From positions 62,001-126,000 of the forward strand of contig CABYPW010000004.1 in NCBI GenBank assembly GCA_902520885.1: a stretch of DNA of 64,000 nucleotides, given 5' to 3'. The DNA comes from an uncultured SAR116 cluster alpha proteobacterium (lineage in GTDB: Bacteria; Pseudomonadota; Alphaproteobacteria; Puniceispirillales; Puniceispirillaceae). Numbering within the stretch: the stretch's first letter is position 1; each line of letters opens with the position of its first letter. Made by a program: the position numbers and the translations under genes. Shown here in pieces: positions 61,019-64,000 of the stretch. The notes under the pieces were generated by a model. That model was given only the letters and a program-made list of their open reading frames with translations. It had not been told where the DNA came from and ran no database searches.

Positions 61019-61714
61019 TTATTCAGAATGATACCATATTGGATCTGTAATTAGGTTTAAGAATTGAGAGTGGTTTTTTAGTTCGTCTTTCGTTGGCTCG
61101 TGATGTCTAATTGGCCTATGTTTTCTATTGACAAACGAAGATTGAAAATCTTTGGTGTTTTCTTTGCCTTCAATCGCAACCTCATTGAATTGAAGGTCTG
61201 GTTGGAGCCCACCTCTTAATTCAACATAAACAGAAGCCAGCAAGTCTGCATCTATTAAAGCTCCATGAAATTCTCTATGCGAATTATCTATCTGAAATCT
61301 TCGACAAAGCGCGTCTAAAGAAGCGTGTGCGCCCGGAAATTTTTTCCGAGCTATTTTTAATGTATCTACAACCTTATCTTCAGATATTATCTGAAAACCT
61401 GACTGCCTTAACTCAGAGTTTAAAAAAGCTAAATCGAATGATGCATTATGTATTACTAATTGATCGTTTTTTATAAAATCGAGAAATTCTTGAGCTACTT
61501 GTTTGAAAGTAGGTTTGTTTGATATAAACTCTTTTGTAATACCGTGTATTTTTATAGCTTCCTCATCTATATCCCTCTCTGGATTAATATACAAATGAAG
61601 CGTTCTTTCTGATGGAACTAAATTAATTATTTCTAATGCCCCTATTTCGATTATTTTATGACCACTATGCACATCAAGTCCTGTAGTTTCTGTATCCAAC
61701 ACCACTTCTCGCAT
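61019..61714 (-). CDS. dnaQ: DNA polymerase III subunit epsilon
   Basis: Proofreading 3'-5' exonuclease of the replicative polymerase. The DEDDh residues are visible: Asp7 and Glu9 in L-D-T-E-T-T-G-L, the Asp in N-A-S-F-D-L-A-F-L-N near 141, and H-x-A-x-x-D in H-G-A-L-I-D-A-D near 154. The 231 residues include the C-terminal polymerase-binding tail. It lies 18 bases after coaE. Confidence 0.96.
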   Translation of the reverse strand: MREVVLDTETTGLDVHSGHKIIEIGALEIINLVPSERTLHLYINPERDIDEEAIKIHGITKEFISNKPTFKQVAQEFLDFIKNDQLVIHNASFDLAFLNSELRQSGFQIISEDKVVDTLKIARKKFPGAHASLDALCRRFQIDNSHREFHGALIDADLLASVYVELRGGLQPDLQFNEVAIEGKENTKDFQSSFVNRKHRPIRHHEPTKDELKNHSQFLNLITDPIWYHSE

Positions 61715-61732
61715 TATTACCTCTACTTAACT

Positions 61733-62326
61733 TCAATCAATTTTATTAAAAAACAACCAACGTTTTAACAATTTATAGCTATATGCTTTTCCTAAACCTG
61801 TTGGAAGACAAAAGTCAGCCAATTGCATTTTAACTTTTTGCGGAAATTGATAACTTATTATATTATTCAATTTTCTTTCTGACATGCCTGAACGTGCTAA
61901 TGCACGTTGTCTTTGCAGAAATTCAGGAGCCCAAACACATATAATAGAATCACAAAAAACTTCACACCCTGTCTCAAATAGTAATGGAATGTCAACGACT
62001 ACCATTTTCTGTCTTTGACCTCTCATTCGAGCAAGAAATTTATTTCTATTAGATTCCACTAACGGATGAATAACAGACTCTAAAGCTTTTTTTCCTTCAA
62101 AGCTTGAAAAGGCTATCTTCCCTAATTTTTCTCTATCTATGCCATTTTCGAGAGTTCTTATATCTCCAAACAATTCAACAATCATAGGAACTGCTGCACC
62201 ATTTGGACCAATTAAGTCATGCACCGTTTTATCTGAATCATGTACTGGTATTTTAAAATGATTACACATTTTACCAATAGTTGTTTTACCTGTTGCTATA
62301 GACCCAGTTAACCCTATTACTCTCAT
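61733..62326 (-). CDS. coaE: Dephospho-CoA kinase
   Basis: Last step of coenzyme A synthesis. The P-loop G-S-I-A-T-G-K-T is at residues 7-14, with D-S-D in the middle of the family's metal site, and V-V-D-I-P-L-L-F-E-T-G is characteristic. The length of 197 residues is normal. The start overlaps the maf stop by 4 bases. In many relatives aroE lies between maf and coaE, but here the two overlap directly. Confidence 0.95.
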   Translation of the reverse strand: MRVIGLTGSIATGKTTIGKMCNHFKIPVHDSDKTVHDLIGPNGAAVPMIVELFGDIRTLENGIDREKLGKIAFSSFEGKKALESVIHPLVESNRNKFLARMRGQRQKMVVVDIPLLFETGCEVFCDSIICVWAPEFLQRQRALARSGMSERKLNNIISYQFPQKVKMQLADFCLPTGLGKAYSYKLLKRWLFFNKID

Positions 62327-62952
62327 GAGACCACAGTTTCTTTAGTTGACACTAAACCGTGTAAACGTAAAAACTCTAATAAAGGGAGTAACGGAATTCC
62401 GAGTATATCATAAAAAGAACCATCGAAACTCGATATTATATGACAGCCCTGATTTTCTATTTGATAACATCCTGGTGTTTTGAGCGCTTTATTCCCTATC
62501 TCTTTAAGGTAGTCATCTATTTCAATATCTGTAAGGGAACGTAGAGTGACCGTTGGTGATGATAAATGGTGCCAAATTCTCTTCCCACCAGAAAAAACAA
62601 CAACACTAGTATGCAGCACATGTGTGTTCCCTTGCAATTTTCTTAGCTGTTCTTTTGCTTTTTTTAGTGATTTTGGTTTCGAAAAACCGATCCCTTTAGA
62701 TTCTAATATTTGATCACTCGCTATAACAAAAGCTTCTGTGTTTGAAAGAGCTATTTGATACCCCTTTATTTCAGCAAGCAATACGGCGCATTCTTGAAGT
62801 GTTGTTTTCCCGGCTAGGGCAGACTCTTTAATAGATTCTTCATCAACAAAGGGTCTTTTGACCAAAAAATCAATTTTTGCATTTTTTAATAAAGCTTGCC
62901 TCGATTTCGATGACGAAGCTAAAATTATAGTCTTATGTTTAAGATTATACAT
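62323..62952 (-). CDS. maf: Maf-like nucleotide pyrophosphatase
   Basis: Pyrophosphatase of the Maf family that removes dTTP, UTP or modified nucleotides. The N-terminal L-A-S-S-S-K-S-R segment, S-D-Q-I-L near the middle and G-C-Y-Q-I-E-N-Q-G in the second half match the family. The length of 209 residues is normal. Substrate class (YhdE or YceF type) is not decided from the sequence. It overlaps the ppsR stop by 8 bases. Confidence 0.9.
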   Translation of the reverse strand: MYNLKHKTIILASSSKSRQALLKNAKIDFLVKRPFVDEESIKESALAGKTTLQECAVLLAEIKGYQIALSNTEAFVIASDQILESKGIGFSKPKSLKKAKEQLRKLQGNTHVLHTSVVVFSGGKRIWHHLSSPTVTLRSLTDIEIDDYLKEIGNKALKTPGCYQIENQGCHIISSFDGSFYDILGIPLLPLLEFLRLHGLVSTKETVVS

Positions 62953-63778
62953 TATCTAATTGATCCAGCCACTGGCGATATAGATGTATTATTGATGCTG
63001 CTATTTCTTCCACTGAACGACGAGAGACATCTATGACGGGCCAATTTTGTCTACTAAATAATTTTCTGGCATCTCTCACCTCATTAGTAATAATATCTAG
63101 ATCAGCATAATTTGGATTACTTAAATTAGATAAATGCTGAAGGCGTGTTTTTCTGACTTGCATTAGCCTTTTTGGATCAGTGGTCAAGCCAACTATGAAA
63201 ATATTTTTTTCTGGTAGTTTATCAATTGGAAATGGTACACCCGGAACGAGAGCATAATTGGCTACTTTGAAGCCTCTGTGACCCAAATACATAGATGTTG
63301 GAGTTTTTGAAGTTCTAGAAACACCAACAAGCAACATATCGGCATCATCCAACCTCTCTATATTTAATCCGTCATCGTGGACAACAGCATATTCTACTGC
63401 TGCCATACGCTTAAAATACGCTCTGTCTAGTTTATGTTGGGCTCCAGATCTTAAACTTTGTTCTACACCTAAAACATTGGTGAAAAGATCTACAACTGAG
63501 TCCAAAATTGATAAGTTTGGTATACCTCGCCTTGTACATAAAGTTTCCAACATTACTCTGACTTCTTTGTTAACTACTGAAAATAATACAACACCTGGGT
63601 TTTTCTCTAAATTACGCTCTATAGCGTCTATGTGTGCTTTGTTCCGAACGAGGGTCCAGATATGTTCCGTGATGTTTGTATCTGGAAACTGTGCCAATCC
63701 AGCTCGCGCAAATTGATGTACTGTTTCACCTGTTGAGTCAGATATTAGATGTAAATGTAAATCATTTTTTTTTACCAT
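62945..63778 (-). CDS. ppsR: PEP synthase regulatory protein (DUF299 kinase/pyrophosphorylase)
   Basis: Bifunctional regulator of the DUF299 family that phosphorylates and dephosphorylates PEP synthase or PPDK. The start L-H-L-H-L-I-S-D-S-T-G-E-T, the P-loop-like V-G-V-S-R-T-S-K-T-P-T-S segment and the D-V-S-R-R-S-V-E-E-I-A-A C-terminus are typical. I chose the ATG at 63778 (277 residues). An upstream GTG at 63847 would add 23 basic residues unlike the family. It is equivalent to RP001, which borders the chromosomal origin next to hemE in Caulobacter. Confidence 0.93.
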   Translation of the reverse strand: MVKKNDLHLHLISDSTGETVHQFARAGLAQFPDTNITEHIWTLVRNKAHIDAIERNLEKNPGVVLFSVVNKEVRVMLETLCTRRGIPNLSILDSVVDLFTNVLGVEQSLRSGAQHKLDRAYFKRMAAVEYAVVHDDGLNIERLDDADMLLVGVSRTSKTPTSMYLGHRGFKVANYALVPGVPFPIDKLPEKNIFIVGLTTDPKRLMQVRKTRLQHLSNLSNPNYADLDIITNEVRDARKLFSRQNWPVIDVSRRSVEEIAASIIHLYRQWLDQLDNV

Positions 63779-63839
63779 TTTCTGCCAGTCTAAGAAGAAA
63801 GAAAGCTTTAACTTAATTATTTTCCTCATATTTCTTTTA

Positions 63840-63848
63840 TTGTACACA
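63840..63848 (+). other. DnaA box-like site (one mismatch)
   Basis: TTGTACACA differs from TTWTNCACA only at the third base. It counts only together with the two better boxes nearby. Confidence 0.35.
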
Positions 63849-63865
63849 GATAATTATCTTTTTCC

Positions 63866-63874
63866 TGTGAATAA
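63866..63874 (-). other. DnaA box
   Basis: TGTGAATAA on the plus strand is TTATTCACA on the minus strand, fitting the TTATNCACA consensus. Confidence 0.6.
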
Positions 63875-63910
63875 TTATTAAAATTTTGGAAAAAGATCAA
63901 AATATACGAT

Positions 63911-63919
63911 TTTTACACA
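63911..63919 (+). other. DnaA box
   Basis: TTTTACACA fits TTWTNCACA. It lies 36 bases from the previous box, in AT-rich DNA suited to unwinding. Confidence 0.55.
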
Positions 63920-64000
63920 AGTTTTTAGAAACTAAATAATTAATTGTATAAGTTTTTACTAAATTTTGTTCAAGTGTTGATTACTTTTTCAAAATTTTTA

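Follow-up and report, generated by a model that had tools for sequence, protein, structure and literature searches.

The last part of the stretch of DNA analysed here (the window; 64,000 nucleotides, C4:62001-126000 of a 2.17-Mb assembly in 39 contigs) very probably belongs to the chromosomal replication origin of an alphaproteobacterium of the SAR116 clade, making up the left 60% of that origin. We assign a predicted oriC to the gap between ppsR and hemE because four lines of evidence agree: gene synteny, DnaA boxes, GC skew as read in relatives, and the neighbouring segregation loci. An origin of this hemE type would be of a known kind, predicted here for a SAR116 genome. Its layout is that of the known Caulobacter origin, which makes it an ordinary though well-supported find with a few details particular to the lineage.

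The whole gap extends over C4:125779-126145 (367 bp, 19.6% GC), that is, from window position 63779 to 145 bp past the window end. An earlier note on this DNA had read the sequence after ppsR as non-coding and had proposed that hemE be sought to the right. Both expectations were borne out: the ppsR match begins at 63778, which leaves 63779 as the first non-coding base, and hemE directly adjoins the gap on its other side, divergent from ppsR, with its start on the plus strand at C4:126146, 146 bp beyond the window end. The ppsR start was taken as the ATG at 63778; a longer frame with a GTG start, reaching to 63847, is also open. The features at this end of the window are the following, in window coordinates.

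61019..61714, minus strand: dnaQ (DNA polymerase III epsilon), left flank
61733..62326, minus strand: coaE (dephospho-CoA kinase), left flank
62323..62952, minus strand: maf-like gene, left flank; NCBIfam scores below the curated cut-offs
62945..63778, minus strand: ppsR (kinase/pyrophosphorylase, PEP synthase regulator), left neighbour of the predicted origin
63779..64000, no strand: predicted oriC, left part (222 of 367 bp) of the ppsR-hemE gap; a further 145 bp lie beyond the window, to C4:126145
63840..63848, plus strand: near-match TTGTACACA, two mismatches to TTATCCACA; possible weak site
63866..63874, minus strand: DnaA box TTATTCACA; TTWTNCACA match at the aligned place in 5/5 genomes of the window's genus and in a partial sixth (L061)
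63911..63919, plus strand: DnaA box TTTTACACA; TTWTNCACA match at the aligned place in 3/5 genus genomes and in L061
64059-64067 (window-equivalent, beyond the edge), minus strand: DnaA box TTTTCCACA; TTWTNCACA match at the aligned place in 4/5 genus genomes

To the right of the gap, hemE is followed by a UPF0093 gene, which we take to be hemJ, and then by rho, an ogt-like gene on the minus strand, mnmE, mnmG, rsmG, parA and parB. NCBIfam cut-offs were passed by ppsR, coaE, dnaQ, hemE, rho, mnmE, mnmG and rsmG, and Pfam cut-offs by parA, parB, the ogt-like gene and the UPF0093 gene. The Ori-Finder description counts hemE among its origin indicator genes (PMC2275245). The view that most genes run away from the gap held to the left of it, where leftward genes numbered 29 of 41 among the window's non-overlapping ATG-initiated ORFs of 200 aa or more, and 63 of 85 over all of the contig to the left of the gap; on the contig's right side the bias was weak, with 14 of 23 ORFs running rightward. 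The window had no Rfam match at gathering scores, and a plasmid collection returned a single 68% match over 7% of the query, which was of no use.

A GC-skew minimum had been expected at this place. On the contig, cumulative skew did reach its minimum at C4:126196, 51 bp into hemE, but only marginally, since another near-minimum 32 kb to the right, near the contig end, was just 15 counts higher. Skew on this contig alone is too weak to serve as proof of an origin, and because of the rival place the skew argument rests on relatives. Two closed genomes, G015 and G020, were followed through 20 sampled 20-kb stretches each, and in both the sign of the skew changed at the gap. In G015 (2,753,527 bp) the negative arm ran from 450 to 1,780 kb and the positive arm from 1,800 kb onward around the circle to 300 kb, with the exception of one stretch of the positive arm at 2,400 kb (-0.023), and the local minimum, at 1,808,564, fell inside the ppsR-hemE gap. 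In G020 the stretches between 260 and 1,470 kb were negative and those from 1,490 kb on, around the circle as far as 130 kb, were positive, with a local minimum at 1,491,844, ~50 bp inside ppsR. The second sign change lay roughly half a chromosome from the gap in both genomes.

The segregation loci point to the same place. The exact parS word GTTTCACGTGAAAC occurs only twice in the whole assembly, at C4:129318 (3.2 kb to the right of the gap, within the ogt-like gene) and at C4:132976 (6.8 kb to the right, at the start of rsmG), after which parAB follow. Thus both parS and parAB, which we looked for beside a hemE-linked oriC, are found near the gap. These observations also bear on whether the gap might be merely a promoter region shared by ppsR and hemE, with its boxes acting as transcription sites and the origin located near dnaA. 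Both genes need promoters, DnaA is also described as a regulator of transcription with boxes in many C. crescentus promoters (PMC4468827), and dnaA lies 68 kb away, to the left of the gap. We nevertheless consider such an arrangement very unlikely, and rejected an origin at dnaA: the skew of G015 and G020 switches at the gap and not at dnaA, which is ~87 and 75 kb off, respectively; parS and parAB lie beside hemE; and the 5 kb taken around dnaA holds no box cluster, its two boxes both falling within the dnaA coding sequence. A pair of origins, at hemE and at dnaA respectively, would resemble what has been proposed from sequence for chromosome 1 of Ochrobactrum anthropi and of Ralstonia pickettii (PMC4403523), but this is highly improbable here: those 5 kb lack a box cluster, and in the closed relatives that were sampled the skew has one main switch of each sign.

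The three DnaA-box words that had been reported for the gap, two boxes and a near-match, were all confirmed on the sequence at their coordinates. The accompanying chance rate of one TTWTNCACA match per 16 kb is right at equal base composition; the rate observed in the window was one per 6.4 kb. Over the window as a whole the word is not in excess (10 matches vs 10.96 in dinucleotide shuffles), whereas the full gap contains 3 matches vs 0.11 in shuffles of the gap itself, with 0 of 200 shuffles reaching 3. The gap carries a cluster of DnaA boxes above chance that includes a further box past the window end, TTTTCCACA on the minus strand, as had been anticipated. The 158,367 bp of contig examined hold 26 boxes, and only in the gap do two or more fall within 367 bp. 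No box of the window matches TTATCCACA perfectly. In two genus relatives (L049 and L053) a whole box on the minus strand overlaps the place aligned to the near-match at 63840. Taken with the hemE neighbour and the skew switch in two closed relatives, the box beyond the edge supports the reading of the earlier note that the window ends at the probable edge of an oriC.

The same gap was compared across the family in a sample of 61 genomes, of which 52 had a hemE match and 45 had both genes in the fetched stretch; these genomes are kin to one another, and counts among them are not independent events. Left out were G006, G044, G046 and G060 (contig ending before any ppsR), G038 and G002 (hemE at the contig edge), L060, L062, L063 and L064 (duplicates, being the same contigs as in G040, G041, G036 and G037), and L061, the partial sixth genome of the window's genus, and L065, in both of which no hemE was seen. 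Also left out was G035, whose diverged hemE (37% identical) lies on an 8.5-kb contig with no ppsR and is perhaps a contaminant. Two genomes of genus g7, G032 and G033 (91% and 98% complete), had no hemE match; ppsR is partial in G033 and was not found in G032. In G030 (C7:234530-235546; L056) the hemE match is in four pieces while the adjoining ppsR has no inner stops, which may reflect either a broken gene or an assembly error.

In all 45 SAR116 gaps ppsR and hemE are divergent, with a spacing of 353-674 bp, and class-wide hemE lies divergently beside ppsR in 28 of the 30 loci examined (from 79 genomes with ppsR among 114). The 45 gaps contain 81 TTWTNCACA boxes vs 3.8 in shuffles, at least one being present in 38 gaps and none in 7, and a word search made without any motif returned TTATCCACA as its top 9-mer (26 of 45 genomes, 0.25 expected). 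The gap of the closed genome G015 is among those with no TTWTNCACA match and has the one-mismatch words TTATCCGCA, TTATCCCCA and ATATCCACA instead. An AT-rich stretch just before hemE is found across the family, the ten GC-richest gaps included, in which AT content is 81% in a 30-bp segment whose end lies 20 bp before hemE, as against ~42-63% elsewhere. Of 40 occurrences of the word TATATATA, which 24 of the 45 gaps contain, 33 begin 26-50 bp before hemE. That the box words are chance products of AT-rich DNA at a place with no role, as the chance-level frequency of the 9-mer over the whole window might suggest, is scarcely credible beside the excess in the window's gap and in the 45 gaps and the one box place kept in 5/5 genus genomes.

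The word GANTC, the methylation word of CcrM, was scarce in the 45 SAR116 gaps (12 occurrences vs about 45 in shuffles).

The closest known parallel in layout is Cori of C. crescentus, which is flanked by hemE and has parS within 8 kb (PMC6650430, PMC4468827), as in the SAR116 genome. The likeness extends to TCCCCA, given as the consensus of the weak Caulobacter site, or W-box (PMC4285127). Outside the window's genus this word occurs in 36 of 40 SAR116 gaps, with 69 occurrences vs 8.9 expected, and the W-box in the form TTATCCCCA occurs 25 times in these 40 gaps vs 0.22 expected. In 28 gaps from other families of the class, TCCCCA was found in 19 (35 occurrences vs 11.8 expected) and TTATCCCCA in 9 (10 vs 0.14); the reversed control ACCCCT was somewhat raised as well, though less than TCCCCA (12 vs 5.5 in SAR116 and 11 vs 7.5 class-wide). 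W-box words extend well beyond Caulobacter. Unlike in Cori, the commonest box in SAR116 gaps is the E. coli type TTATCCACA, the G-box TGATCCACA was found in 0 of 45 SAR116 gaps (and in 0 of 28 class-wide), and CtrA pairs, TTAA-N7-TTAA, were not enriched, with 2 seen, in 2 of 45 gaps, vs 2.9 expected. Control by CtrA of the Cori type, judged by these G-box and CtrA-pair counts, was not supported. CtrA pairs in the gap were rare class-wide too (3 of 28 gaps; 6 occurrences vs 1.0 expected, the palindrome being counted on both strands).

In the window's own genus TCCCCA was found in none of the five gaps, nor in the partial L061. AT-richness alone does not explain the missing word, because the gap of L047, at 17.8% GC, carries two. 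Since the five genomes represent one lineage, however, the W-box absence counts as one event.

A second family trait concerns the DNA that may be unwound. A DnaA box (up to two mismatches) followed after exactly 4 bp by CTA was present in 22 of 44 SAR116 gaps vs 0.57 expected, while the reverse strand had none at this spacing; L057 was omitted from the CTA and trio counts because of a run of N. CTA at 7 bp from a box occurred in 11 of 44 gaps, 9 of which also had the CTA at 4 bp. Box-N4-CTA was a family-level signature only, being absent from the 28 class-wide gaps. The fixed spacing may mark the melting site, and the arrangement resembles the basal unwinding system of B. subtilis, in which the nearer box is reported to lie 4 bp on average from the DnaA-trios (PMC8287927): the SAR116 gaps likewise have a box, 4 bp, CTA (the complement of 3'-GAT-5') and AT-rich DNA after it. 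It differs in that the published trio pattern (at least 3 triplets with middle A, at most 16 bp from a box) was found in 20 of 39 SAR116 gaps outside the window's genus on the forward strand and 28 of 39 on the reverse, against 8.4 in shuffles. With CTA required as the first triplet, the counts were 6 forward and 8 reverse of 39 (shuffles 0.8) and 0/5 in the window's genus; the unrestricted pattern occurred in 4/5 genus gaps on each strand (shuffles 1.9). Being about as frequent on the other strand, the published pattern fails to mark the hemE side.

The window's genus differs here as well. Box-N4-CTA occurred in 22 of 39 gaps outside the genus, whereas the five genus gaps keep the CTA and the AT tract with no adjacent box at up to two mismatches (0/5); the nearest box is on the opposite strand, at a distance of 36-42 bp from the first CTA. 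A tentative and rather unlikely reading is that two features have been lost in this AT-rich genus, the W-box words and the DnaA box that precedes the CTA/AT tract by 4 bp, and that opening of its origin would start from a box farther away; the odds of this reading are lowered by the lack of strand specificity of the trio pattern. If true, this would be a natural origin that works although it lacks the proximal platform believed to direct unwinding.

For the predicted hemE-linked origin, initiation would proceed by binding of DnaA-ATP to the gap boxes and formation of an oligomer, after which AT-rich DNA would melt, most likely in the tract just upstream of hemE (window-equivalent ~64101-64145), the least certain of these steps. 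Helicase would then be loaded for two forks, and ParB on the parS sites would move the new origin.

A further comparison is offered by Hyphomonas neptunium, whose origin is also near hemE, with hemE close to the marker-frequency maximum, parAB ~7 kb from hemE and two perfect parS sites (PMC6650430). Unlike the SAR116 origin, predicted here from sequence, that of H. neptunium was mapped by marker frequency; before this mapping, according to the same account, bioinformatic markers had given no clear origin, and for this reason sequence-only origin calls need caution. SAR116 is described as belonging to the most abundant heterotrophs of the surface ocean (PMC8547437). Literature matching a search on SAR116 oriC was on other subjects by title, and no origin passage was found in the SAR116 genome papers that were searched; an earlier prediction may exist in origin databases or elsewhere. 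A search on DnaA-trios and alphaproteobacterial oriC matched, by title, only work on Epsilonproteobacteria, and all among the matches listed for TTATCCCCA were unrelated by title. The find is of modest interest, which lies in how the gap is laid out across the family and in the features missing from the window's genus. Placement of the origin would also supply a zero point for coverage-based (peak-to-trough) growth estimates in SAR116 genomes.

The parS and dnaA comparisons covered 10 chosen genomes. Both parS words near the window are intragenic (L003, positions 9318 and 12976), and the ogt-like and rsmG proteins share the peptide VSRET. G015 has 18 exact parS words: 8 form a cluster at 3-8 kb from the origin, and the other 10 are scattered over the chromosome. 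In each of the nine further family genomes searched, 0 to 3 were found. Five of the 10 scattered words in G015 lie within a longer common unit, TTTGTTCACGAAAT followed by parS.
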